64,000 bases of DNA from Lentibacter algarum. Its GTDB lineage: Bacteria > Pseudomonadota > Alphaproteobacteria > Rhodobacterales > Rhodobacteraceae. The stretch is taken from NCBI RefSeq assembly GCF_018860975.1, contig NZ_JAHKQI010000005.1, positions 124,001 to 188,000 of the forward strand, given 5' to 3'. Both the position numbers and the translations under genes were made by a program. Within the stretch, counting starts at the first letter, position 1, and the number at the start of each line of letters is the position of its first letter. The notes beneath the pieces were generated by a model that had not been told where the DNA came from, did not search any database, and saw only the letters and a program-made list of their open reading frames with translations. Of this stretch, positions 9,317 to 24,113 are shown piece after piece.

Positions 9317-10068
9317 GGGCCCGCTACGACGCTTACGTTATTTGCTCGACGCCTCGTAGCGGCAGCACTTTGTTATGCAAACTGCTCGAAGCAACCGGCG
9401 TGGCCGGCGCAGCTGACTCGCATTTTCACGAACCCTCGATCAAGGCGTGGGCCGAGGACTACGGGCTTGAGCTTTGCGACTTTGCAACCGAACTTGATGC
9501 GCTCACGGCCATTGTTTCGGCGGCGAAAAGACGCGGTAGCAGTGCCAATGGTATGTTCGGGCTGAGGATGCAGCGCGGTAGCTTTGCATACTTTATAGAG
9601 CAATTGTCGCGGATGTTCCCCGCCGGAAAAACAGAGGCCGAGCGCATTGAAAGCGCCTTTGGGAAGACCTGCTATGTTCACCTCACCCGTGAGAACAAAC
9701 TTGATCAGGCAATATCGCGGGTAATGGCCGAGCAAACGGGGCTGTGGCACCGCGCGGCTGACGGGCGTGAGCTTGAGCGCCTCTCGGCCCCTCGTGAGCC
9801 ACAGTATAACGCAGCCGAAATCGAGCGACACCTACGGGAATTGCAGGCTTATGACGCGCAATGGGCGCAGTGGCTTGCGCAGGAAAACTTGCAACCCGTT
9901 GCGATAACCTACGAGGCGCTCGCAGCTGACCCTGTCGCTGAGGTGTCACGGTTGTTAAACGCGCTCGGGCTCGACGGGTCTCTTGCAGAAGAACTCACGC
10001 CTCCAACAGCCAAGCTTGCCGATTCAACAAGCCAAGTCTGGGCCGAACGCTTCGAGCGCAAACGTTGA
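9313..10068 (+). CDS. Sulfotransferase, Stf0-like
   Basis: 251 residues, GTG start overlapping the cupin stop. The N terminus carries the PAPS 5'-phosphosulfate loop in YVICSTPRSGSTLLCKLL and the family segment HFHEPSIKAW. A middle segment, LTRENKLDQAISRVMAEQTGLWH, corresponds to the 3'-phosphate region of Stf0-like enzymes. Members transfer sulfate from PAPS to sugar or other hydroxyl acceptors in the cytoplasm. It ends the GST-cupin-sulfotransferase operon. The acceptor is unknown. The stop lies 7 bases before the tRNA fragment at the left end of the genomic island. Confidence 0.85.
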   Translation: MRARYDAYVICSTPRSGSTLLCKLLEATGVAGAADSHFHEPSIKAWAEDYGLELCDFATELDALTAIVSAAKRRGSSANGMFGLRMQRGSFAYFIEQLSRMFPAGKTEAERIESAFGKTCYVHLTRENKLDQAISRVMAEQTGLWHRAADGRELERLSAPREPQYNAAEIERHLRELQAYDAQWAQWLAQENLQPVAITYEALAADPVAEVSRLLNALGLDGSLAEELTPPTAKLADSTSQVWAERFERKR

Positions 10069-10075
10069 ATGTAAC

Positions 10076-10122
10076 TGGCGACCCCGGCAGGATTCGAACC
10101 TGCAACCTGCCCCTTAGGAGGG
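10076..10122 (-). repeat. Distal attachment site: 47-bp copy of the tRNA-Arg 3' part
   Basis: The stretch is identical over 47 bp to 24067-24113 and covers the CCA end, acceptor 3' strand, T arm and part of the anticodon arm of tRNA-Arg(CCT) on the minus strand. Beyond base 10122 the sequence leaves the tRNA, so it is not a functional tRNA gene. This is the expected scar of tRNA-targeted integration. Confidence 0.93.
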
Positions 10123-10136
10123 ATGCGTTCATGGCG

Positions 10137-11231
10137 CTATTCCTTTTGTGATTTCTTACTGTTGGGTGTTTGTACAGCCTCATCCTGTACGTGGTTTGTA
10201 CGAAAACGGGCCCTGATGTCGGCCTCATCCGTCTCTGCGTGGGCATAAATCCGCATGGGCAAATTTGGGTCTGACCAGCGGCCAGCCTTGGCTGCGGTGA
10301 CCGGGTCTACGCCTTGGCGCACGACCAGCTCAGTGAAGAACCCATGCCGCCCGGCGGGATGCGCTGACAGGTACGGAATGCCCGCGCGTTTACAGATCGT
10401 CTTCCAGCGCGTGTTGTAACCGGTGGAGCTGCCATAGCCAAAAACGCGCGGTTTCATGAACTTGCCGGTCTTGCGGTTCTTGGGCCGCTTCGGTGGCAGG
10501 GCCAGCAACTCATTCATCATCTGAGGCGAGACGGTTATCCAGCTTTCCGGATGACCTTTCTGCGCCTTCACCCTGACCTTGTTCTCTAAAGGTCGCAGAT
10601 CGTCAGGCTCAATCGAGACAGCCTGGTCGATCCACGCTGCCGTCTCGAACATGAACCGCACCAGTGCCGCGTTGTACGGATCAGCGGCTCGGCAGAAGGC
10701 TTCGATCCATTCCTTGTCGGCGGGCTTGCGTTCGACGCGGCTGTTCTTCCCGCGACGCTTGTCCTGCGCGATCCGCTCAAACTTGTCATAGGGCTTCACC
10801 CGGATCAGAGGCGTGCCTTCCAGTTCGTGTGCGTTGTTAATCACCGCACTCGCTGGCGTCACGATCTCGCGCCACCAAGTATCGGTTGACGCTTTGGGTT
10901 TTAGCTTAGGCCCAAGGCTCTTCAATAGCGCACCAGAAATCGCGCCTAGCGACAGGTCGCCGATTGCTTCGACAATCGGGATCAACTGCTTCGCCGCTTT
11001 GGGGGACGCGTTGTAGAGCATAATGGCATCGGAGAACGTCTTGCTTGGTTCGTCGCCCACGACATAGCGGCGGATTTGCCGTTCGGTCTCATGGTTTATC
11101 CAGTCCTGTGCGCCCTCTTCTGTAGATGCCTTAGTGCTTCGCCGGTATGGGCCGGCGATTGGCCTGCCGTTGTATTCAATCCACCCCTTGGCCCAGTAGA
11201 CACGGCCCCTCTTGTAAATTTGGAGCGGCAT
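10137..11231 (-). CDS. int: Site-specific tyrosine recombinase (element integrase) with substituted catalytic Arg
   Basis: 364 residues. The N-terminal half is an AP2/SAM-like arm-binding region. The catalytic half shows the box II-like AGRHGFFTELVVRQGVDP, then AGRWSD and the nucleophile segment MRIYAHAETDE with the presumed Tyr. In the first catalytic box, where ETxARIxxAV is expected, the protein reads ETAAWIDQAV, so residue 200 is Trp (codon at 10632-10634); CGG to TGG is one transition. The catalytic Arg I is essential in the family, so activity is doubtful. The gene reads towards the left attachment site 14 bases away, and its start overlaps the HTH gene upstream by 136 bp. Confidence 0.9.
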   Translation of the reverse strand: MPLQIYKRGRVYWAKGWIEYNGRPIAGPYRRSTKASTEEGAQDWINHETERQIRRYVVGDEPSKTFSDAIMLYNASPKAAKQLIPIVEAIGDLSLGAISGALLKSLGPKLKPKASTDTWWREIVTPASAVINNAHELEGTPLIRVKPYDKFERIAQDKRRGKNSRVERKPADKEWIEAFCRAADPYNAALVRFMFETAAWIDQAVSIEPDDLRPLENKVRVKAQKGHPESWITVSPQMMNELLALPPKRPKNRKTGKFMKPRVFGYGSSTGYNTRWKTICKRAGIPYLSAHPAGRHGFFTELVVRQGVDPVTAAKAGRWSDPNLPMRIYAHAETDEADIRARFRTNHVQDEAVQTPNSKKSQKE

Positions 11232-12326: not shown

Positions 12327-13226
12327 ATGGCCTTCGGTATCTTCATACATCGCAGCGACTCGATCTACGACGACATTCCCTCGGAGCGGTATCAGTTTCC
12401 AAAGCAATACCTCTCACGTGCCCAGCAGTGCGAAGGGGATTGAATCGTCTACCTGGAGCCAAGCAAAGTCAAAGAGACCAAAGGGTACTTTGCTGTCGCC
12501 AAGGTTCAGGAAATCATTCCAGATCCAAGGAAGCCAGACATGTTCTTGGCGGTTATAGAGCCAGGAACGTATCTTGACTTCGGCGACCCAGTTTCATTCC
12601 GAGATGAGAATTCAATCATCGAAAGCGGATTGCTGAACGATCAAGGCAAGATTTCCGGGCGAGCGCAAGCAGCGGTCAGAACCCTTTCCGCTGAAGACTT
12701 TGCTCGAATTATTGAACTTGGCCTTGGACGGGATGAGGACATCTTGCCGCGCGTGGGCGACACGATGCAGATGCCAGGGTTTCAAGATGCTCAAACACCT
12801 TTCCAACACATACCCGCTCGAGAACGTGTCAACCAGCTGACCAACCGCGCGGTTCGCGACCGAAACTTCAGGAAGAATGTCCTGCGCGCCTACGGCGAAC
12901 GCTGCGCCATCACTGGATTACGTCTGATCAATGGCGGTGGTCGTGCTGAAGTGGAAGCCGCTCATATCAGACCCGTAGAGCATGACGGCCCTGACATCGT
13001 GAGCAATGGGCTCGCGCTCTCCGGAACTGCGCATTGGATGTTTGATCGCGGCCTCGTTGGGTTAGCAGACGACCTGACTATTTTGGTTTCCCGTCAGAGC
13101 AACGATATCGAAGCTGTGACATCGATGATTAACTCGTCCGGCAATATCTTGGTGCCGGACCGCCTCGCTAACCGGCCAAGGGCGGAATTTGTGACTTGGC
13201 ACAGGGAGAATTGTTTCAAGCAGTAA
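12327..13226 (+). pseudogene. HNH endonuclease interrupted by an in-frame TGA
   Basis: Reading from ATG 12327, 38 codons (MAFGIFIHRSDS onward) lead to CEGD, then TGA at 12441-12443, and the same frame continues without another stop for 260 codons to 13226. The next residues, IVYLEP, make TGG the likely ancestral codon (GDWIVYxEP). The C-terminal half carries an HNH core: YGERCAITGLRL, VEAAHIRPVEHDGPDIVSNGLALS, and FDRGLVGL. Such proteins occur as solitary restriction-like nucleases in islands. A shorter product from an internal start (for example ATG 12540, 228 residues) would keep the HNH core but lose the N-terminal domain. Single-base decay is the simplest reading. Confidence 0.8.
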
Positions 13227-13258: not shown

Positions 13259-13860
13259 TCATAGGTGGGGCCTCGCGTTTGCCAGATGACCCTCGTTACG
13301 AAGATGCCTGGTCATCTGCCGACCTCCAAAGAACGGCGTTTCCAAAAGCTGGTCGTCGATCTGGCGGGTCAGGTTCATCGCCGTCTTGCCGTTTGGCGTG
13401 TAGGAGAACGATGACCGCGAGATTGACAACAGATGACACTGTTTGCGAATCGACAGGTCGGTGTTGGCTGGTTCAACCATCTTCCGCCTCGCTTGCCGAT
13501 CCATGGTTTGAGCTTTCGTGACAAAAATCCTCGGCGACGGCAACTTCACGATCTTAGCGTGCAGCTCTTTGAGCTGTTCTTCGTCAATCTTCGGGGCTTT
13601 CTTATCAACGCGCTCAAACACACCAGAAGCGCATTCAAGTAGCACCCACTTCCAACTGAGACTAATCATCGGGTGAACGCTAAACCGGCCCGCCAGCTCG
13701 GCCACGAGATGCTTACCCTTCAGCGCTTCAAGCGCCACCTTTGCCTTGAATTCGGGCGAATAATTCTTCCGTTTCGACATCTCTGACCTCCTTCTCGTCG
13801 AAGACCAGCAAACAGCAAATCGTAGCCTACCTCAGTTTACGAAATTCAGGGGGTAGCTCA
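13259..13860 (-). mobile_element. IS3-family insertion sequence remnant (5' half: OrfA plus start of OrfB)
   Basis: A 173-codon frame from ATG 13780 begins with an IS3 OrfA (MSKRKNYSPEFKAKVALEAL, VFERVDKKAPKIDEEQLKEL) and passes in the same frame into OrfB-like sequence (ANTDLSIRKQCHLLSISRSS, FFGGRQMTRHLRNEGH), then breaks off near 13270 and stops at 13259. Normally OrfA and OrfB are in different frames, so small indels have merged them. The element end upstream of OrfA is visible at about 13832-13860 on the minus strand, starting TGAGCTACCCCCTGAATT. The DDE catalytic core is missing, so this copy is dead. Confidence 0.8.
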
Positions 13861-13980: not shown

Positions 13981-14019
13981 TTAGACATTTTTAGATTTTT
14001 GGGTTGCTTTTAGACATTT
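13981..14019 (+). repeat. Direct repeats TTAGACATTT upstream of the envelope operon
   Basis: TTAGACATTT occurs at 13981-13990 and 14010-14019, with a related TTAGATTTTT at 13991-14000, in an AT-rich stretch about 40 bases before the first start codon of the five-gene operon. Spacing of 29 bp suggests binding sites on similar helix faces for a regulator. Nothing else gene-like is seen between 13861 and 14057. Confidence 0.4.
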
Positions 14020-14057: not shown

Positions 14058-14117
14058 ATGAAAAATGCCAAAAATAACTCGGCCCGCGGCAACAGCGCCC
14101 CCTCTAAGCGGCGGTGA
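14058..14117 (+). CDS. Possible 19-residue leader peptide
   Basis: ATG 14058 is preceded by GGGAGG at 8 bases, the best ribosome binding site in this stretch, and opens a 19-codon basic frame (MKNAKNNSARGNSAPSKRR) ending in TGA. It overlaps another frame starting at 14065 that is open into the next gene. It may be a translated leader, or the true N terminus of the next protein separated from it by a frameshift. Evidence is limited to the site and composition. Confidence 0.3.
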   Translation: MKNAKNNSARGNSAPSKRR

Positions 14118-14205
14118 GCAGCTCGAACCGATAAGCTCTACCCACCAGCCAACCAAAGAAGAAACGGAAGAGCGTACAGAACCTCTTTCAGAAAGGAACA
14201 CGCCA

Positions 14206-14505
14206 ATGCAAACGCCCAAACAACCGCGTCCCGGATCTTCGGTTCCCACTGCTCCGGGCAGCACGCCCCAACCGACCACTCAAACGACGCCAATGGAACA
14301 TAAGGCCCGCGTCCACATGGCGCTGATCACGGGAGCACGTCAGAACCTGGACCTGTCTGCCGCAGCCCGGGCGCTGAAAGATCTGCCCAAGCGCCAGCTG
14401 GACGCCCAGGTCGCGGAGACAAAGGCCCAGACCCGCCGTCTGCTGGTGGCAAACCATCAGCTGATGAACCCCAAGTCACCCACATCTTTGGACAAAAAGG
14501 ATTAA
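14206..14505 (+). CDS. Small proline/glutamine-rich protein of unknown function (first gene of envelope operon)
   Basis: 99 residues from ATG 14206, which has GAAAGGA about 8 bases upstream. The frame is open back to 14065, so a 146-residue form is possible. The first 35 residues are rich in Pro, Thr and Gln and probably unstructured. The rest is helical: ARVHMALITGARQNLDLSAA then LPKRQLDAQVAETKAQTRRL. There is no signal peptide and no membrane helix. I recognise no family. It ends 4 bases before the membrane protein gene, so co-expression is very likely. It may be a cytoplasmic partner of that protein's C-terminal domain. Confidence 0.55.
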   Translation: MQTPKQPRPGSSVPTAPGSTPQPTTQTTPMEHKARVHMALITGARQNLDLSAAARALKDLPKRQLDAQVAETKAQTRRLLVANHQLMNPKSPTSLDKKD

Positions 14506-14509
14506 CTCA

Positions 14510-15496
14510 ATGGACTTCCAAACATACTCGACAGGCGCCAACGAGGAAGCCTCCACCATGGTGGCCGTTGGCGGAAAGCTGATGATGTTCGTCGGGCTTT
14601 TGATCATCGGTATCGTCCTGACCAGCCCAGCTCTGCTTGAATGGGTCTATGCCCACGAGACCATGCTGCACCTTCAGCGCGATCCCCGTGATGGCACAGT
14701 GACGCCCGCCGAAGAGTGGATTGCCCTCGTCGGTGCCAGCGCATTCGTCGTGGTCAGCATCGCGTGGTTTCACTACCCGCTCAGCCGGATGCATGGGCTG
14801 ACCCGTGGCTTTGGGGTGCTGCTGTTCGCGCTCGGGCTGATTATCATCGTAACCTTTGCCCAAGCGGCTTTGGTCGCATTGAACAGCCTGCCGCGCACAG
14901 GATCTACAGGTCCGAATGCTGGGGCGACAGGATCCTTGCGCGATTTCATCATAGGTACATCCACGATTATGCGCTCTGTCTTTCTGGTTCTTGCTGCCAT
15001 CACCGCTGCCTTCGGCGTTAGCGTTGTCTTGCGAGCGGTCAATGGCATCTGGACGTCGCTGCGCCTGCTGCGCCATGGCAACCGCCTGTCGGCCAACACA
15101 ATTGAGTTGGCCCGTCTAGACGACACAGAGTTGCTCGACGAACAGGACCTGGCCGAAAAGAACGAGGATAAATTTGTTCACTCTGTTTCTTCCCGCATCC
15201 GGAGCGAAACCCAAGGCTTGGTCCGGTACAGCACTGGCATTGCCGCCAACACCGCCACAGCAATCATCGCGCAAGAGATGAAGGCCTTTGGCCCAGCAGG
15301 TGAAAAGGACAACGATATCGAGAAGATCGCTGAGGCTGCCGTCGCGCCGCTTCGCATCGATCTGAGTCTTCTTCCGGCGCGCTTCGATGCTTTGGCCGAA
15401 GAAGCCCAATACGAGCTTACCGCTCATATCGAGTATCTGACCAATCTCGCAGACGTGGACCGTATTCGCAACGACCTGCGCGCCGCGACATCCTAG
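14510..15496 (+). CDS. Four-helix inner-membrane protein of unknown function
   Basis: 328 residues. Four hydrophobic segments are seen at about 24-47 (MMFVGLLIIGIVLTSPALL), 68-90, 98-124 (FGVLLFALGLIIIVTFAQAA) and 155-177. A soluble, probably cytoplasmic, helical domain of about 150 residues follows, rich in acidic residues (LARLDDTELLDEQDLAEKNE) and with a coiled-coil-like end. No known domain was recognised. It is the second gene of an intact five-gene operon with two exported proteins, a membrane protease and an OmpA-like protein, so it may be the inner-membrane core of an envelope-spanning assembly. Function is unknown. Confidence 0.7.
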   Translation: MDFQTYSTGANEEASTMVAVGGKLMMFVGLLIIGIVLTSPALLEWVYAHETMLHLQRDPRDGTVTPAEEWIALVGASAFVVVSIAWFHYPLSRMHGLTRGFGVLLFALGLIIIVTFAQAALVALNSLPRTGSTGPNAGATGSLRDFIIGTSTIMRSVFLVLAAITAAFGVSVVLRAVNGIWTSLRLLRHGNRLSANTIELARLDDTELLDEQDLAEKNEDKFVHSVSSRIRSETQGLVRYSTGIAANTATAIIAQEMKAFGPAGEKDNDIEKIAEAAVAPLRIDLSLLPARFDALAEEAQYELTAHIEYLTNLADVDRIRNDLRAATS

Positions 15497-15516
15497 TAGC
15501 CTAGAGGAGCCAAACT

Positions 15517-16170
15517 ATGCGTATCATCACTTCTGCCGCCCTCGCCCTTGGCGTGACCCTTGCTTCGGCACACAATACGGCCCAAGCCCAAGAGCGCCCC
15601 AAGCATATCCACGTCGTTTATGACCTGTCACAGGCAGGTCTGCGCGATCCCAGTGTTATTGCCCACCTGGGCGGCGTCACACAAGAAATTACTTCGGAGA
15701 TTAATCCCGGATTTGGAGATCAGGTGCACCACAGCTCTTTCGGGGGCACGCTTGCGGAAAACTTGGGCGCGACTGATTTTAATGCGTCGTTCACCTTCGC
15801 ATATTCCGGTGCCGACCCGCGTGACATGGCCAACGGGATTGCGCAGCGCCTGCAACTTTTGCCATCCACAGCGGCGCAATCTGGGCAAGGTTCGCTGCAA
15901 CAATTGCTGTCTGATCTGGACCTTGATTGCAGCGCAGAGAACTACGTTATTGCCTACCTCAACGGCACCGAGGGGCTCAGCTTTGACGGATCACGCGCGG
16001 ACTATATCGGTCTGCCCACCTCCCCATTGTGTGGGAGCTTTCACTTCGTGGGCTGGTGGATGACCCAAGAACCCGAATGGGCTTGGCCCGGTGTGCGCAA
16101 ACAAGTCGAAGAGATCACGCGAGACGTCCTGATATCTTTGGGGGCTGAGAATGTTACGTTCCATCGCTAG
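15517..16170 (+). CDS. Exported periplasmic protein of unknown function, possibly VWA-like
   Basis: 217 residues with a clear signal peptide (MRIITSAALALGVTLASAHN, likely cleavage after TAQA near residue 24). The mature protein opens with HIHVVYDLSQAGLRDPSV, which resembles the first strand and metal-site loop of von Willebrand A folds, but the DxSxS motif is incomplete. Two cysteines (in LDLDCSAEN and SPLCGSF) could form a disulfide. AGGAG precedes the start by about 9 bases. Its end overlaps the protease gene by 20 bp. Secretion, gene order and coupling suggest a periplasmic part of the five-gene system. Confidence 0.65.
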   Translation: MRIITSAALALGVTLASAHNTAQAQERPKHIHVVYDLSQAGLRDPSVIAHLGGVTQEITSEINPGFGDQVHHSSFGGTLAENLGATDFNASFTFAYSGADPRDMANGIAQRLQLLPSTAAQSGQGSLQQLLSDLDLDCSAENYVIAYLNGTEGLSFDGSRADYIGLPTSPLCGSFHFVGWWMTQEPEWAWPGVRKQVEEITRDVLISLGAENVTFHR

Positions 16171-16942
16171 TCGTAGCTGGCCGGAGGGGGCCTTCCCCCG
16201 CCGGCTGCCACCCTTGGGCTTTTGGCGACACGATATGCCCGTCGGGGCACAGATGGCCCTTGCCGTCGCCCTCGCCACAGCCTGTGTTGCAATTTCAGTG
16301 ATTGCCCTCCCTCTGGCGTCATTTGATGCGGCCCAACGGGCAACAACATTCTACCATGAAGCGAGCCACGCTACGGTTTCCTATCTCTTCAATGGAGATT
16401 GGCTGCCGATACACCTGCACGGCGAGGGGGGTGGGCACGCAATGGTCCTGCCTATGGGATCTGCCTCACGTATTGTGATCGCCTTGGCCGGAATGATTGG
16501 CCCCGCGATCCTTGCGGCAGCCCTTCTGGGCTTTGGACTGACACGGGTGCTGACCTCCACGCTTCTGGGCGCTGTTGGGGGCAGCACAGCCATAGTGACC
16601 TTCTTTCTGACCACTGCGCCTGGCAGCGCTGTTGTTATGTTGTATTCGCTGGCGGCAGCAATGATCCTGTTGGCGCTGCTGCCACCGGGTGGGCTGATCA
16701 AATCCGCGGGGTGTCTGTTCTTAGGCGCGTGGCTTACCTGGGGTGTCTTCAACGGCATAAGCTATGCCGATGTTGAGTGGATCGACCCGCAACAGACCCA
16801 ACCGTCCGACGCCAAAATTGTTGCCCTGGAACTTGGGTACGGCGACCTAGGCGATGTCCCCGACATGATCAAGCTCTTGACCGGCTGCTTTTATTTCCTT
16901 TCTGCGTTCCTCACACTTGCGTGGTGGATGCGGCATCGTTGA
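16151..16942 (+). CDS. Polytopic membrane protein with HExxH motif, M50-like metalloprotease candidate
   Basis: 263 residues; the 5' end overlaps the preceding gene by 20 bp. A basic N terminus leads into about six hydrophobic segments. At about residue 72 the sequence FYHEASHATVSYL holds an HExxH zinc motif at the start of a helix region, as in M50/M50B intramembrane or membrane-bound peptidases. A clear NPDG partner motif is not seen, though a late DLGDVPD acidic stretch exists, so catalysis is unproven. It might process the exported or OmpA-like neighbour. The OmpA-like gene start follows its TGA closely. ATG 16235 is a possible shorter start. Confidence 0.65.
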   Translation: MLRSIASRSWPEGAFPRRLPPLGFWRHDMPVGAQMALAVALATACVAISVIALPLASFDAAQRATTFYHEASHATVSYLFNGDWLPIHLHGEGGGHAMVLPMGSASRIVIALAGMIGPAILAAALLGFGLTRVLTSTLLGAVGGSTAIVTFFLTTAPGSAVVMLYSLAAAMILLALLPPGGLIKSAGCLFLGAWLTWGVFNGISYADVEWIDPQQTQPSDAKIVALELGYGDLGDVPDMIKLLTGCFYFLSAFLTLAWWMRHR

Positions 16943-16953
16943 TGGAGATTCCC

Positions 16954-17640
16954 ATGAAACAGATCCTCACAGCCTTCGGCATTGTCACAGCGATGGCTCT
17001 GCCCGCCACTGCGGAAGAGTTCTTTGTTCTGACGCCCGACCTCGTCCAGCCAAGTGAAACAGGCACTGTCTTAACGCAACCGGAATCGTTGGGAGGCACG
17101 CTGGCGCCGCCTGAGAATGCCGGAGCCCCTCTGGCGCAATCACAACAGATCGGCGGGATGTTGGCACAGGCAACGCCTAGTGGAGGCGAACTGGAACCAG
17201 CAGAGCCATTGGGCGGCACCCTTAACAGAGGAATCGACATTGGTATCGAGCGGCCCATACCGCCCACGCCACAGCCCCTGCAAGAGGTGGTAGAAGAACT
17301 GCAACCCATGCGGTTTCCCGACGCCTTCTTTGATACAGGATCCGCAGCGGTAAAACCGGCCGGTTACGCAGTCCTCCTAGTTCTTGCCGCAGAACTGAAT
17401 AAGCGCCCCGATGTCATCATCGAGATACAAGGGCACACCGACAGCGTGGGCACACGTGCCGATAATTATACGCTTGGAAACAACCGTGCTCTAGCAGTGA
17501 GCCGTATTCTCCTTGACTACGGTGTTTCGGGTGAACGCATGGTAACAAAGTCCTTTGGTGAAGACCGCCCCGAGGCTGATAATTCTACCCCACAGGGACG
17601 CCAGATTAACCGTCGTGTGGATATCATTCCACGCAGCTAG
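16954..17640 (+). CDS. OmpA-family outer-membrane/peptidoglycan-binding protein with decapeptide repeats
   Basis: 228 residues. A signal peptide (residues 1-20, MKQILTAFGIVTAMALPATA) is followed by six tandem 10-residue repeats at residues 31-90, consensus roughly xQPxxLGGxL, then a Pro-rich linker and an OmpA C-terminal domain at about 115-228 with IEIQGHTDSVGTRADNYTLG and NRRVDI, the peptidoglycan-binding signature. ATG 16954 was chosen for GGAG 5 bases upstream; ATG 16942 overlaps the previous stop and is an alternative. There is no lipobox. It should be periplasmic, bound to the cell wall, with the repeats as a flexible or adhesive spacer. A strong terminator follows. Confidence 0.85.
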   Translation: MKQILTAFGIVTAMALPATAEEFFVLTPDLVQPSETGTVLTQPESLGGTLAPPENAGAPLAQSQQIGGMLAQATPSGGELEPAEPLGGTLNRGIDIGIERPIPPTPQPLQEVVEELQPMRFPDAFFDTGSAAVKPAGYAVLLVLAAELNKRPDVIIEIQGHTDSVGTRADNYTLGNNRALAVSRILLDYGVSGERMVTKSFGEDRPEADNSTPQGRQINRRVDIIPRS

Positions 17641-17659: not shown

Positions 17660-17693
17660 AAAATGAAGGCGCGTGCTAACGCGCCTTCATTTT
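17660..17693. terminator. Bidirectional intrinsic terminator between convergent cargo units
   Basis: A perfect 14-bp stem, AAAATGAAGGCGCG and its complement, encloses the 6-base loop TGCTAA, with A-runs before and T-runs after. It sits 19 bases after the OmpA-like gene and just before the stop of the convergent gene pair, so it can end both transcripts. Confidence 0.9.
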
Positions 17694-17697
17694 ATTT

Positions 17698-18462
17698 TCA
17701 GTTTACAATGCTAAAGTTCTGGGCTTGGTTATAGATTTTGCGCCTATTTGAATCTGCCGCTGATTTACTGGCCAGAACATCTTTAAGTGTCGGGGCCTTC
17801 GGATTACGTTTCTTGTATGAATACACCGCGAGCACGAGATTATGATCGAGCTTATCCAATGCCTCTCGGTCAAGGACTTCCGCAATAACCCATTTTGCGT
17901 AAACTGATCTAATAAACTCTACCGGCGGTCCATCTTGTATGACGCCTCTATATTTTCTGGGAGCAACGCTCGGAATAGCGGGCACCTCGTCGCCATTCGC
18001 TAACGAATTCTCGATGCTAATTTTTGTAGTTGCTCTCACTGTTGAAATTGTTTGATTGTTTACCCCAGCTGCCTTCATGGCGGAGCACATTTTCTCTATA
18101 ACGCTATCCACTATTTCAGAATTTGATGTTTTTTCTATTGCAACGCCCTTCTTACGTTTTGATGGGTTGATTACGAACGATACTTCACCGCCATCAAAAA
18201 AATTTTTATCGTTTACCTGCCTGAATATCTGAGCCTTTTCTCTCATTGCTTCCTGGGGAATAACTTCGTGCAGGGGGAAAAAAGCAATTTGCGAGGCGTT
18301 GTCAAAAATGCGCCCCCTTTCGTACACCAGCTCCTCCACCTGTTCAGCATCAAACTCTGGTTCGTAGTTCTCATTCACTCCACTCAGCGCGATCTCTAGT
18401 AGTTCAGCCACCGGGGTGAAATCACCACGAATGAACGTGGGGTTTTCTGTCGATTCAGTCAT
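17698..18462 (-). CDS. Unrecognised protein, second gene of the convergent cargo pair
   Basis: 254 residues, soluble, no signal peptide or membrane helix. The N-terminal third is acidic (FDAEQVEELVYERGRIFDNA). The middle is basic (FVINPSKRKKGVAIEKTSNS) and the C terminus is strongly basic (VYSYKKRNPKAPTLKDVLAS, SNRRKIYNQ), which could contact nucleic acid. Its ATG is one base after the stop of the 656-residue protein upstream, so the two are translationally coupled and probably interact. Base composition of the pair looks more AT-rich than the flanking island genes. I recognise no family; a defence, toxin or DNA-processing role is only suggested by the island setting. Confidence 0.7.
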   Translation of the reverse strand: MTESTENPTFIRGDFTPVAELLEIALSGVNENYEPEFDAEQVEELVYERGRIFDNASQIAFFPLHEVIPQEAMREKAQIFRQVNDKNFFDGGEVSFVINPSKRKKGVAIEKTSNSEIVDSVIEKMCSAMKAAGVNNQTISTVRATTKISIENSLANGDEVPAIPSVAPRKYRGVIQDGPPVEFIRSVYAKWVIAEVLDREALDKLDHNLVLAVYSYKKRNPKAPTLKDVLASKSAADSNRRKIYNQAQNFSIVN

Positions 18463-18463
18463 T

Positions 18464-20434
18464 TTACCGTGCTTTCCGTGTTCGAGCCCTGGTCAAGGGA
18501 CGGTTTGTATTCATCCTCTCCAAGGCGACTCTGTTGAATAAGGCGTTCATGCCTTCGTCGATTGTTCGTGAGTAATCCCGTTCTTCCACACCTCTCCAGT
18601 TCTGGACGGATTGAAAGAACGCATTACTTTGTGTGATCCCTCTTATTTCGACAGGATCAGATTCCAAGTCGGCATTTGGGAAACAATACAGAATACTTCC
18701 ATCTACCCGAAATTCTGGAAATCCAAGCGGGTTCAGTCGCCCATGCGACTTAGCATCTTCCTCAAGCTTCTTCAGAGCTGCGCCTAAGTCAGTTGCATTC
18801 TGCAGGGCGAGAGAATCAAACTGCGCGATGGTGTTGACGATCAAGTGCGAGAAGTCTTCCCATAAAAGGTCGCTTGAGGATCGTCGAATTATGCTTCGAA
18901 TGTAGTTCGACAGATGAAAGACCGCCTGCCATATCCGGCCATCATAAATCGGAAAAGCTTCGCTTTGGTTTGCGTGATAGAAGTGGCCTGAAACTGCCCA
19001 TACGGCTCCCCGCTCCATAACTGGAATCAGAATCATCTTCACGCGACCTGCACCATTTTGCCCTAAGGCACGACGTGCCATTTGTGAAAACACGTAGTGT
19101 GCCGCAACAATTCTAAGACCATCGTTCAAATCTGGGTGAGAGGATAATGAACCAATCGATTTAAGGCCTTTAAGCCCAGGGACCCTTGTTAAACCACCAT
19201 CCTCGAATACCTCGCGAAAATCGATCAGACCAGTCTCAAATATTGGATCGGTAAAAGACCTTGCGTTATCTCCAATTTTGCTAGTGTATATTTCCAAAAT
19301 CTTTTTTGGCCCATCTGATCCTCCCAAGATATTGAAGAACTCCTCTTCAAGTACCTTTCTCTGCTTCAGATACTTTCTACCCAATTTAGCACTAGAGTAG
19401 TTGATCAGCTCGCCACCATTACCTGGCTCCCCAAGCCACGCGAAGAACTCTCTTAGTTCGTCTTCTTGTTTCTTGGGAAGAATAAATTGTACATCATACT
19501 GGTATCCTCGAAATTTTTCAGCTTCCTTTTTGTTCAGTGGCCGCCTTGCGTTTTGGCGAGTATAAGCACGGGTTGCCAAGAAGAAGTTGCTTAGAGGTGG
19601 GCCTACATTATCTTCACTCATATCTTCAGAAAATGTTCGAACACTTGCCATCTCTGTCAAATATGAAAGCCGCCCTGTGAGGCCATCAAACAATGGAGAC
19701 AAGTCAGAAGTCAGCTTTTTGTACCACGCATTCTGTGCACTTGGAGCGGGGATGTTGACGGATGAAGAGGGGCCGTCGAGATTCCCTGACATTCGGTTGA
19801 TATGCCCCTTAACCAAATCACTCATGGAGCGCCGCAGATAGTCATATGCCAAAATCTGAAAGCTTGCAGGGTATCGAGCCCATTCCAAGTCGAAGAACTT
19901 TCTAGCGCAGATTGCTATATAGTCAAAGGGGTTTGCAGGCACCTCTTGAGCCGCATCTACCGGTTTTACAAGTTCGTATTTTTTTTCTTGAGCCGATCCC
20001 ATGACCTTGAAGATCGAAAGAAAGTACTTTGTGCGATGATCCGAATCCTCGCCCTCTTTTTCCACAGGCATACTTGACGCTGAGGGGAAAATCGGAAAAA
20101 GCTTTTCAGGATTAGCCTCTAGTTTTTCTTCTGCCAGGTGCTCGATCAGTCCTGAATAGAACCCTTTGTCCCTTGAGAGTATGTAATGCCGCTCCAACTC
20201 ACTATCTGCTGACTGGCGATAGATCACAAACACCGCTGGCTGCTGGATGAGTGTTATGAACACATTCAGGAAATCATGAAAGTAAAAGTTGTTAGGGGTG
20301 TATGCGCGCAGAAAGACATCGTGCGCCCTACTAACCGCATCGGCCACCCTGGCATCCAAGGTGTTGGCTGAAATAGTACTGTCTGCCACTTTATGTGTTG
20401 TCCCAATTTTAGATGTTTTTAGCTCTTTCGCCAC
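18464..20434 (-). CDS. Unrecognised 656-residue protein, first gene of the convergent cargo pair
   Basis: A long soluble protein without signal peptide or convincing membrane helix. I see no Walker, HTH, nuclease or protease motif. Notable segments are an aromatic-rich N-terminal stretch (FLRAYTPNNFYFHDFLNVFI, about residues 41-60), a central basic Tyr/Lys-rich region, and a C-terminal half with MILIPVMERGAVWAVSGHFY, then FEDFSHLIV-like helices, ending in a very basic tail (TRARTRKAR). It is coupled to the 254-residue gene downstream by a 1-base gap. The pair has its own apparent promoter space (20435-20578) and an AT-rich composition, consistent with separate acquisition. Function unknown. 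Confidence 0.72.
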   Translation of the reverse strand: MAKELKTSKIGTTHKVADSTISANTLDARVADAVSRAHDVFLRAYTPNNFYFHDFLNVFITLIQQPAVFVIYRQSADSELERHYILSRDKGFYSGLIEHLAEEKLEANPEKLFPIFPSASSMPVEKEGEDSDHRTKYFLSIFKVMGSAQEKKYELVKPVDAAQEVPANPFDYIAICARKFFDLEWARYPASFQILAYDYLRRSMSDLVKGHINRMSGNLDGPSSSVNIPAPSAQNAWYKKLTSDLSPLFDGLTGRLSYLTEMASVRTFSEDMSEDNVGPPLSNFFLATRAYTRQNARRPLNKKEAEKFRGYQYDVQFILPKKQEDELREFFAWLGEPGNGGELINYSSAKLGRKYLKQRKVLEEEFFNILGGSDGPKKILEIYTSKIGDNARSFTDPIFETGLIDFREVFEDGGLTRVPGLKGLKSIGSLSSHPDLNDGLRIVAAHYVFSQMARRALGQNGAGRVKMILIPVMERGAVWAVSGHFYHANQSEAFPIYDGRIWQAVFHLSNYIRSIIRRSSSDLLWEDFSHLIVNTIAQFDSLALQNATDLGAALKKLEEDAKSHGRLNPLGFPEFRVDGSILYCFPNADLESDPVEIRGITQSNAFFQSVQNWRGVEERDYSRTIDEGMNALFNRVALERMNTNRPLTRARTRKAR

Positions 20435-20578: not shown

Positions 20579-21004
20579 ATGAAAGATGGTTTCCATTTCT
20601 CCGTTGATGTTTCAGTCCTTTGGGGCGTCGTGGCTGACCTGCTGACCTGGGTCCCACTATTCAAGACGCTGGTGCTGATCTTGCTGCTGGCTGCCTTGGT
20701 GATCGGGTTCGCCTTCTGGCATAATGCGGGCACGCCTGAGCTGTTAGGCTTCTACGGCACGTCGCTACTGTATTTTGCGCTAGGTTTCATAGCCGGGATG
20801 TTCGACAGCTTGGATGATGCCCACCGCAAGCTGGTTCTCTGGCGATACGACAACAACAACGTCAGACCCCACTCGTCGCTCGGAAACAAAACACCCGTCG
20901 AGGCGCGTCGGACGCTTGAGCAATTTGAGGGCTCCGCGCCCGACGCGCTTACCCAAACCGACAACGAAGAATATGAAAACCAGACCCGCAAACTCTCGTT
21001 ATGA
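20579..21004 (+). CDS. Chimeric reading frame: small membrane protein fused to IS3 transposase C terminus
   Basis: 141 residues. Residues 1-79 have two or three hydrophobic helices (LFKTLVLILLLAALVIGFAF, LGFYGTSLLYFALGFIAGMF) and end in DSLDD. From residue 80, AHRKLVLWRYDNNNVRPHSS onward is the standard end of IS3-family OrfB transposase. The gene looks like a membrane protein whose own 3' end was replaced when an insertion sequence landed or recombined there. The transposase tail lacks the catalytic core and adds a hydrophilic C-terminal extension. It may still be expressed as a membrane protein; no family recognised for the N-terminal part. Confidence 0.6.
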   Translation: MKDGFHFSVDVSVLWGVVADLLTWVPLFKTLVLILLLAALVIGFAFWHNAGTPELLGFYGTSLLYFALGFIAGMFDSLDDAHRKLVLWRYDNNNVRPHSSLGNKTPVEARRTLEQFEGSAPDALTQTDNEEYENQTRKLSL

Positions 21005-21376: not shown

Positions 21377-21838
21377 TTAAGGCTCCTTGATCTCGATGCA
21401 TATGATCGGCCTCTGCGCCAATGTGCAGGTCTTCAATTCGGTCCGGTCGGGGTCCAGCGTCACCCATGTCTGCCCGGCCTGTTCGATCCGTGTCAGGCCA
21501 AGCCTCGTCATTTCCGAGCGCGTGATCAAACCCGTCCAGAACCAACTCGCGATCAGCACTGTCGCGATCCAGGCTGAGACCACCCCCACGATCACCCAAG
21601 GCGAGATCGTCAGCCAGCGCCGGATCGTTTCGCTCCGCCTCTCCAACTCGCTCTTGCTGTCGCTGAGAAAGAACCTGATATCGGTGTCGATTGTATGCAG
21701 CGCGCTGGTCGCAATGCTGCTGAAATCGCTCCTGAAGCTCTCCAGCTGAGATGCCATCAAGGCGGCGTGGTCGCTCCGGATCGTTTCCAGGTCCGCGTTC
21801 AATTTCTCGGCGAGGCGGTTCGGCTTGCCAGTCGTCAT
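21377..21838 (-). CDS. Membrane-anchored mobilization accessory protein nested in mobA (MbeB-like position)
   Basis: 153 residues. A helical cytoplasmic N-terminal part (LNADLETIRSDHAALMASQL, then SKSELERRSETIRRW) precedes one transmembrane helix at about residues 80-101 (WVIVGVVSAWIATVLIASWF) and a short distal domain. It lies entirely inside the region of the relaxase C terminus but in another frame, like mbeB of ColE1, whose product is membrane-associated and stimulates transfer. Its start is about 200 bases after the mobA frameshift, so its own frame is unaffected. The next nested gene starts on the base after its stop. Confidence 0.65.
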   Translation of the reverse strand: MTTGKPNRLAEKLNADLETIRSDHAALMASQLESFRSDFSSIATSALHTIDTDIRFFLSDSKSELERRSETIRRWLTISPWVIVGVVSAWIATVLIASWFWTGLITRSEMTRLGLTRIEQAGQTWVTLDPDRTELKTCTLAQRPIICIEIKEP

Positions 21839-22583
21839 GGAAAATCTCTCCTTTCAAACGCCAGCGCTCGCCGGTGTCGGGGTCTTTGGCGGTGATGTAA
21901 TTCTTGCTTGCACGGGGGATCTCGAAACCCGCCTCTGATAGCGCGTCGATCATGCTGGCGCGGTCGGTGATGCTGCCGACGCTGATCTGATCGAGGATCC
22001 ATTCGTGCAGCGCCTCGCGCCCTTGCGCGTGTCGGCGCTTCAATCGTCGCCCTCACTTCGCGAGAGCGATCTGGCTCCAAAGGGTCTGCCCAACCGTGGG
22101 TCTTGTTCATCAGATCACGCAGGCTGGAAAAGGCGTTCTCATGTCCTGGCGGCGCGATGTTCAGCGCCTTGCCCGTGCTTAGCTCAAGGCGTGGCGCGCA
22201 GAAGTGCAGCTCGACATTGCCTTCATGCGAGTGGCGCACCCAGAGGCAATCGTATTGATCCCTGTCCAGCCCAGCAAAGGCCAGAGCCTCAAATAGCTCA
22301 ATGGCCTCTTGCTGGGCGTCGGGTCTGGGATCATCGTAATCGGCAAAGCTGATCACGCCTGCCGTGTAGCTCCACTTGTTGGGGCTCGCGTCGATCAGGT
22401 CACGGGTTTGGTCTGGATTGCCGTGCAGCACCTCTGGCAGCGGGTCTCGAATCTTTGTTTGCGGCTGACCGGTGTCGTCGCAGATCAGGTTGCGGTTCTC
22501 GTCACAGGCCAGAACTTCGCGTGCAGTCAGGTAATCCACGGGGGCCGCACCGCCACCTGTGCCAGTGGAGAAGAACGAGATGA

Positions 22584-23057
22584 TCATTCGCAGTTCTCGC
22601 CTGTGTGCGCCGCCACGATCTGCGCCAATTGCCGCTCGATGACCACCAGCTGCGCAACGACCTTGAGCGCATCTATCTGGCTCGCGCGGCCGGACTTGAC
22701 CGCGCCGTTGATCCAGCGGGAGAGCTGATTGAGGTTGCCGCCGACGCGGGCAATCGCAAAGGTCAGCCTCGGGTCAACTCGGGGGACGGGCTTGCGCCGA
22801 CGTACCTCGGTCAACCCCAAGGCCTCGCGCATCAGCGTGGCATTGGGCAGGCCAGCGGCGCGCGCCTTGGCCACAAGCGCTGCCTTTTCCGACGGGGTGC
22901 ATCGAAAGATCACGCTCTCGGAAAGGCCCTCTTTGATGCCGCTTGCGCGCGTCTGGTTGGGGTTTGAAGGGGAGGCTTGCCGCCCCTCACAAGTCCCGCC
23001 GATGTAATCGGTGGGTAACCTTGCTGTTTGCTCTTCTGTCGGATCGGTTGCGGTCAT
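22584..23057 (-). CDS. mobC: MobC/MbeC-like relaxosome accessory protein
   Basis: 157 residues. An unstructured N terminus of about 45 residues precedes a ribbon-helix-helix-like segment (VIFRCTPSEKAALVAKARAA). The MobC signature follows (LTFAIARVGGNLNQLSRWIN, about residues 98-117) and a helical C terminus. MobC proteins bind near oriT and help open the strand for the relaxase. Both ends overlap neighbours as ATGA, with the Rep-like gene upstream and mobA downstream, forming a coupled rep-mobC-mobA unit. oriT is expected near this unit but no nick-site sequence was identified. Confidence 0.85.
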   Translation of the reverse strand: MTATDPTEEQTARLPTDYIGGTCEGRQASPSNPNQTRASGIKEGLSESVIFRCTPSEKAALVAKARAAGLPNATLMREALGLTEVRRRKPVPRVDPRLTFAIARVGGNLNQLSRWINGAVKSGRASQIDALKVVAQLVVIERQLAQIVAAHTGENCE

Positions 23058-24066: not shown

Positions 24067-24113
24067 TGGCGACCCCGGCAGGATTCGAACCTGCAACCTG
24101 CCCCTTAGGAGGG
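24067..24113 (-). repeat. Proximal attachment site within tRNA-Arg
   Basis: The 47-bp copy inside the intact tRNA gene is identical to 10076-10122. It spans from the CCA end to the anticodon arm. Homology ends at 24113, inside the 3' side of the anticodon region as read on the plus strand. Confidence 0.92.

Follow-up and report, generated by a model that had tools for sequence, protein, structure and literature searches.

The window analyzed here is a stretch of 64,000 nucleotides from Lentibacter algarum (contig NZ_JAHKQI010000005.1, positions 124,001 to 188,000), and our subject is a five-gene operon at positions 14065-17640 of its + strand. A first-pass annotation of this DNA had described five co-oriented, tightly spaced and intact genes, and our reading of the open frames confirmed the description: the frames of P1 to P5 are intact and tightly packed, with P4 overlapping P3 by 20 bases. 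The same annotation placed the start of the unit at 14058. However, the ATG at that position opens a frame of only 19 codons, and P1 starts instead at 14065 or 14206 (Table 1). The operon is enclosed by an integrase/mobilization element of about 14 kb that is bounded by a 47-bp direct repeat at tRNA-Arg.

We found the same five-gene order at four loci: the window, L002, G172 and G1115. L002 is a 3,353-base contig from a metagenome-assembled genome labeled Gammaproteobacteria, and it carries P1 to P4 in the window's order, followed by the initial 47 codons of P5. It was the only confirmed P2 relative in our genome-contig scan (1 of 157 pattern-matching stretches), which used the single protein P2 and detects close relatives only. 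Identity between the window and L002 was 84% for P2, 89% for P3 and 93% for P4; because the contig is so short, its organism label may be wrong. The other two copies are remote, though both come from the same family as the window genome. In G172, a small protein is followed by P2, P3, P4 and P5, and among 394 genomes this was the only one besides the window's own with a P4 match (E 6.5e-13). Its identity to the window was 15% for P2, 25% for P3, 24% for P4 and 36% for P5. Pairwise BLASTP gave E 7e-08 for P3 and a weak E 7e-04 for P2, and the homology of this copy rests on P4, P3, the OmpA domain of P5 and, weakly, P2. About 6 kb from the G172 operon we also observed a 1219-aa protein with a NACHT domain (L006:7411-11067, equivalent to G172:C28:114411-118067), which had no PADLOC match. 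All five genes stand in order in G1115, which a profile search of 215 genomes of the order recovered at E 4e-40. Profiles built without G1115 matched its P2, P3, P4 and P5 at E 2e-22, 8.5e-28, 6e-43 and 7e-22, respectively, and identity to the window was 27% for P1, 23% for P2, 26% for P3, 34% for P4 and 31% for P5.

Could the five genes be no more than old debris, unrelated to one another and caught side by side in an island by chance? Broken genes elsewhere on the window element would fit such a view. However, the neighborhood survey that the first-pass annotation had suggested contradicted its refuting case of unrelated genes that never occur together, since three further loci keep the same order. 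Selection speaks in the same direction: between the window and L002, dN/dS was 0.24 for P1 (counted from 14206), 0.15 for P2, 0.14 for P3, 0.12 for P4 and 0.15 for P5 (on 47 codons only). We therefore consider debris a very improbable explanation. Because the order recurs at three other loci and dN/dS lies at 0.12-0.24, we conclude that the five genes form an old set that is under selection and kept in order. The comparison with L002 and G1115 also bears on the P1 start. The start at 14065 appears to be favored by a HQxTxEExE stretch common to the P1 proteins of the window, L002 and G1115, and the candidate at 14206 is preceded by AGAAAGGA. The 24 codons upstream of 14206 have a dN/dS of 0.55, a value that does not decide between the two starts.

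Profile searches of the five proteins, suggested earlier as a check, were informative in part: P4 and P5 matched families, and P1, P2 and P3 matched nothing above cut-off. P4 had been described as a membrane protein with an HExxH sequence, and this description held. It matched Peptidase_M50B (PF13398) at E 3.1e-12, above the gathering score, and it has several hydrophobic stretches. Against a cut-off of 26, the PF13398 bit scores were 47.1 for the window protein, 63.7 for G172 and 37.7 for G1115. The zinc-site HExxH is present in all four operon copies (as HEASH, HESSH, HEGGH and HEAAH), and all four also keep a P(S/A)D motif. By analogy with site-2 proteases, the Asp of this motif may serve as third zinc ligand; when 13 weak-hit proteins and three operon copies are aligned, 14 of the 16 rows have D in its column. 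No PDZ domain was found by Pfam in the window, G172 or G1115 copies of P4, and PHROGs gave one chance-level match. From the family match, P4 is a predicted M50B intramembrane protease.

P5 had been called an OmpA-like cell-wall protein, and it indeed matched the OmpA domain PF00691 at E 3.6e-20. The three full-length copies scored 72.6, 80.4 and 79.1 bits (cut-off 27.2), so that both the M50B and the OmpA family matches recur in the two remote copies. GHTD and NRRV are kept in all three full-length copies, and we take the conserved residues (GHTD and the later RA) to be peptidoglycan-binding residues of the OmpA domain. NCBIfam returned OmpA-domain families only. PHROGs returned six families (best phrog_7897, E 7.5e-27), of which five have no assigned function, and 5 of the 6 best stretches fall within the C-terminal domain. 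Among the operon proteins PADLOC matched only P5, and with ZorB models only. The family match thus makes P5 a likely wall-binding component. In the linker that precedes the OmpA domain of P5, residues ~36-91 (17059-17226) show, by eye, an imperfect repeat with a unit of about 10 residues and the core GG-x-L; G172 P5 carries a repeat of GEDILP type in a comparable position.

The remaining operon proteins are less easily placed. For P1, neither Pfam nor PADLOC gave a family at E<=1; NCBIfam gave a single one at chance level (E 0.26), and PHROGs, searched with the 99-aa form, gave none. P2 had been described as a four-helix membrane protein, and hydropathy bore this out with four hydrophobic stretches; Pfam and NCBIfam gave chance-level matches only. 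Its AlphaFold model is all-helical at low confidence (pLDDT 44, pTM 0.24). We rejected a reading of P2 as MotA-like, as in Zorya, because only a short loop separates hydrophobic stretches 2 and 3 and no profile matched. P3 had been suggested to be exported and possibly von Willebrand factor A (vWA)-like, and the vWA assignment is unproven. Neither Pfam nor NCBIfam gave a vWA match, P3 had no Pfam match of any kind, and Pfam scans of the remote copies gave no vWA match either; judged by eye, however, strands and helices of the AlphaFold model (mean pLDDT 51) follow one another in a succession compatible with a vWA domain. Across the four copies, two cysteines and the Asp that closes strand 1 never vary, but the DxSxS (MIDAS) form is not invariant. 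A structure search with the P3 model returned middling matches only, which were uninformative and were not used. Among PDB sequences, P4 had no match, and the matches of P3 (PI-PLC, E 0.017) and of P2 (E 0.51) were at chance level. Sec signal peptides could be read by eye in P3 and P5 but were not flagged at the hydropathy cut-off. Hydropathy and reading by eye point to a membrane location for P2 and to export of P3.

Table 1. Features of the operon and of the surrounding mobile element, in window coordinates
Feature	Position	Strand	Description
GGTTGYTTTTAGA motif	14002..14014	+	presumed promoter or operator element of operon
P1	14065..14505	+	small soluble protein rich in Pro; 146 aa (99 aa if started at 14206)
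P2	14510..15496	+	predicted membrane protein, 328 aa; four hydrophobic stretches in N-terminal part, long C-terminal part
P3	15517..16170	+	presumably exported alpha/beta protein, 217 aa; vWA-like by element order only
P4	16151..16942	+	M50B-type intramembrane metalloprotease signature, HExxH; alternative start 16235
P5	16954..17640	+	presumably exported, 228 aa; repeat-rich linker, C-terminal OmpA-type peptidoglycan-binding domain
Intrinsic terminator	17660..17693	+	15-pair stem, T-rich tail, between convergent genes
Q254	17698..18462	-	254 aa, no recognized family; 57% identity over 254 aa to G1115:C38:288570-289334
Q656	18464..20434	-	656 aa, no family; 76% identity over 640 aa to G1115:C38:286646-288568
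Left attachment repeat, 47 bp	10076..10122		identical to 24067-24113, match no longer than 47 bp
Tyrosine integrase	10137..11231	-	PF00589 E 6.8e-07
HNH nuclease gene	12540..13226	+	PADLOC HNH models
Transposase piece	13259..13780	-	flanks operon and Q254/Q656
Transposase piece	20579..21004	+	flanks operon and Q254/Q656
Relaxase piece, MobA/VirD2 type	21838..22587	-	PF03432 E 1.3e-04, 22.6 bits, below cut-off 24.6
NikA/MobC-type mobilization protein	22584..23057	-	PF21983 E 4.4e-11, PF05713 E 2.1e-06
Right attachment repeat	24067..24113		3' end of tRNA-Arg (CCT)

The 13-base motif GGTTGYTTTTAGA lies upstream of P1 in three of the four loci (window, L002 and G1115). It matched once in the window and never in 100 shuffles; it is absent elsewhere in the 367 kb of DNA compared (overlapping copies included) and from the G172 stretch. 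In G1115, TTGTTT, which lies inside the motif, and TATAAT are spaced by 17 bases, and a promoter scan of the window gave no sigma-70-type site at the motif. At the other end, the dedicated terminator claimed earlier is present as a strong hairpin that closes the operon, but because the hairpin sits between convergent genes it may serve both sides.

The claim that the operon is intact island cargo stood up well: the repeat at the tRNA-Arg 3' end, the integrase, the relaxase piece and the NikA/MobC gene all point to a mobile element. On the tRNA side, all six congeners matched, their best match starting at the tRNA 3' end in four (in one over only 123 bases) and further inside the flank in two. 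On the far side, none of the six matched beyond the repeat itself (676 bases, 9400-10075, tested). This left flank may be another variable region. The element also carries a helix-turn-helix gene, an HNH nuclease gene and two transposase pieces. The neighboring genes had been described as damaged, which is true of the relaxase and apparently of the transposases but not of the integrase, the HNH gene, Q254 and Q656, all of which are uninterrupted open frames. Since the relaxase frame is broken after the piece listed in Table 1, no intact relaxase is left in this decayed element and transfer by the window copy is doubtful. The HNH gene matched PADLOC HNH models (E 7.5e-20), one of them named as a type II restriction enzyme (E 7.8e-08). 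The transposase pieces, with PF01527 and rve_3 matches, look like remnants; lying on opposite strands around the operon and Q254/Q656, they make an old composite mobile unit possible. A blastn comparison of the two pieces gave no match, but as they hold different transposase parts this result does not decide the matter.

The carrier in G1115 differs. Genes for VirB4 and a lytic transglycosylase lie upstream of that operon, and genes for a coupling protein, a relaxase, ParDE and a ParA-type ATPase lie downstream, a gene content that makes a conjugative element the most likely carrier. Perhaps the operon is an accessory of conjugation? Its complex would then reinforce or open the envelope for the element's transfer machinery, or manage the resulting stress, with P5 tying the machine to the wall. 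The place of the G1115 copy between VirB4/transglycosylase and coupling protein/relaxase genes agrees with this, as do the mobilization genes of the window element. However, in G172 we saw no transfer gene by eye among the open reading frames (ORFs) over 88-165 kb, seven of which were scanned in Pfam; none of the 15 window-island proteins scanned was a type IV secretion protein; and the window element has kept the operon intact but has a broken relaxase. We regard a conjugation role as unlikely, if worth keeping in mind.

Envelope-located proteins on mobilizable or conjugative elements also bring entry (surface) exclusion to mind, whereby the operon would keep its host from acquiring the element, or one related to it, once more. 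Against this, the carrier elements differ: apart from the operon and Q656/Q254, no other frame (>=80 aa, E 1e-4) is shared between the window island and 38 kb of G1115. Moreover, known entry-exclusion modules consist of one or two proteins. Hence, we think exclusion rather improbable.

The homologues of Q656 and Q254 directly follow the G1115 operon in the same orientation as the operon, whereas in the window they are convergent with it. They are present at two of the three loci with a readable downstream side; in G172, 88-165 kb gave no match. Both are far better conserved than the operon and may thus have moved separately. Any functional link between the pair and the operon is hypothetical. 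An extended interpretation would be a hitherto undescribed seven-gene protection system of conjugative and mobilizable elements, in which a wall-anchored periplasmic P3/P5 sensor triggers P4 to act on the four-helix membrane effector P2 and Q656/Q254 serve as a cytoplasmic arm. We consider this version doubtful.

The operon is rare: we found three operon-bearing genomes (G000, G172 and G1115) in sets of 100, 394, 385, 349, 147, 385 and 215 genomes. These draws overlap, and because genomes recur between them the counts are not additive. P2 was found in 1 of 100 relatives' genomes, the window's own, with all six congeners searched; this search and the P3 search of 385 genomes used single-sequence queries and would miss remote copies. 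Two weak non-own matches of P3 in the 385 class genomes (E 0.003 and 0.006) were taken as noise. The P4 profile gave 14 matches in 349 phylum genomes (own and 13 weak), own and one weak in 385 class genomes, and G172 only among 147 G172 relatives at E 1e-8, with no further operon in the phylum and class sets. In the order set, 11 of the 215 genomes passed E 1e-6; besides G1115 and the window's own, the other nine were weak (E at least 3.5e-8). Taking the 13 weak loci of the phylum set, the one of the class set and six new ones of the order set together, none of the 20, which were checked with profiles of P2, P3 and P5, had a P2- or P3-like gene in the flanking DNA compared, about 1.5 kb or less per side. 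One of them, L017, has an OmpA-type ORF with other genes intervening. L020 and L022 are probably unrelated to P4, as HExxH is missing at the aligned place.

Outside cellular genomes, no relative of the operon was found. Against 72,556 plasmids, tblastn found nothing for P2, P3, P4, Q656, P3 and P4 of G172 or P3 and P4 of G1115, and the operon DNA found nothing in distant mode. The whole island touched 19 plasmid records in near mode, none over >80% of the island; each of the 15 matches listed covered 1-2% of it and fell on either the tRNA repeat or the right transposase piece. P4 and P3 had no match in 50,697 phage records, and viral-contig scans with P2, the P4 profile, the P3 profile and Q656 confirmed no relative. 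Hence, the operon is unlikely to be a common plasmid or phage module. The first-pass annotation had recognized no known system with this layout, and we agree: none of the Pfam, NCBIfam, PHROGs and PADLOC matches suggests one, P1, P2, P3, Q254 and Q656 have nothing above cut-off in the libraries scanned, and a literature search of partial coverage found no description of such an operon. The roles put forward in that annotation, envelope defense, a contact-dependent function or stress, are hypotheses. The domains of P4 and P5 are known; their combination was not found described in the literature thus covered.

RseP and SpoIVFB are site-2 proteases of regulated intramembrane proteolysis. We wondered if P4 might act likewise in an envelope-stress or signaling pathway that benefits the host in its habitat, with no role in defense. 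The M50B signature, the presumed periplasmic location of P3 and the wall-binding P5 are consistent with such a pathway, as would be the first gene of G172, whose match to a ribbon-helix-helix DNA-binding family is at chance level (E 0.2). However, Pfam and NCBIfam recognized no sigma, anti-sigma or transcription factor in the operon, and a general stress role would sit less easily with its rarity and its presence on mobile DNA. We judge this explanation to be unlikely as well.

The reading we prefer, with a probability of roughly 40%, is that the operon is mobile-element cargo that builds a trans-envelope complex and so protects against competing phages or elements. P5 would be held on the cell wall through its OmpA domain and linker. 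P3, soluble in the periplasm and perhaps vWA-like, would join P5 to the inner membrane, where P2 would form a four-helix part with a cytoplasmic helical tail. Disturbance of the link between wall and membrane, such as a phage injecting its DNA or an arriving conjugation machine might cause, would lead P4 to cleave a membrane partner, either P2 or a host protein. P1 may be a small cytoplasmic regulator or a partner of P2. The cell, and hence the element, would be protected from its competitors. This chain of envelope-disturbance sensing, cleavage of P2 or a host target and host protection is speculative, and protection of cell and element is its least certain step. We prefer defense to a transfer role because the intact operon survives beside a broken relaxase and because no transfer gene was seen near the G172 copy; both arguments are modest.

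All four loci lie in or beside mobile or genome-specific DNA. For G172, one flank of the operon is shared with both the congener G1079 and the window's own genome and the other, on the side of the NACHT gene, with neither, in a comparison that had no positive control and in which G1079 is 89% complete. This limit is one of several points that weigh against defensive cargo. In PADLOC, no operon protein matched a defense family except through the generic OmpA domain (ZorB), and P2-P4 of G172 and the seven G172 neighbors scanned had no match. The NACHT gene lies near the operon at a single locus, which makes its proximity weak evidence. The first gene of G172 shares 12% identity with P1 and no convincing similarity, so the correspondence is limited to position and size. 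With pLDDT 51 for P3 and 44 for P2, the AlphaFold models are of poor quality and support no contact. If defense or exclusion is nonetheless the role, the operon would pair an envelope sensor anchored in the wall with an intramembrane protease, P4, which matched no PADLOC model. Even if it is not, four copies in fixed order define a gene set that offers a conserved upstream motif and clear residues for experiment.

How does the operon compare with known systems? Its carrier has the integrase and the direct repeats at a tRNA gene that mark an integrative mobilizable element, and it lacks an intact relaxase. The operon shares with RseP and SpoIVFB the zinc intramembrane protease signature of P4, but it has no recognized anti-sigma or pro-sigma substrate and P4 has no Pfam PDZ domain. 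Partnerless PF13398 proteins of other Proteobacteria have HExxH and the late Asp motif in common with P4; unlike P4, they have no P2- or P3-like gene nearby, as seen at the 20 weak loci. In a published study, vWA-fold periplasmic proteins are proposed to couple to inner-membrane motors (PMC12204202). Standing beside inner-membrane proteins, these force transducers resemble the operon arrangement, but they are described there as membrane-tethered and next to tolQ-like genes (PMC12204202), whereas P3 looks soluble and no tolQ-like gene is recognized here. Tol-Pal likewise combines a wall-binding OmpA/Pal-type domain with periplasmic partners; here, however, P1-P4 have no TolQ, TolR, TolA, TolB or ExbB match in Pfam or NCBIfam, and a protease is part of the operon. 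Zorya differs in several respects. P2 does not qualify as a ZorA, since Pfam, NCBIfam and PADLOC gave no MotA/ExbB match for it, P5 reads by eye as an exported soluble protein and not as a MotB-like membrane protein, and the ten island proteins scanned include no ZorC, ZorD or ZorE partner, since besides P5 only HNH and HTH-type PADLOC models matched. To our knowledge, Zorya has no M50 protease. What the two have in common is an inner-membrane complex, predicted in our case, that is tied to peptidoglycan through an OmpA-type domain, and it is through this domain that P5 matches the ZorB models.

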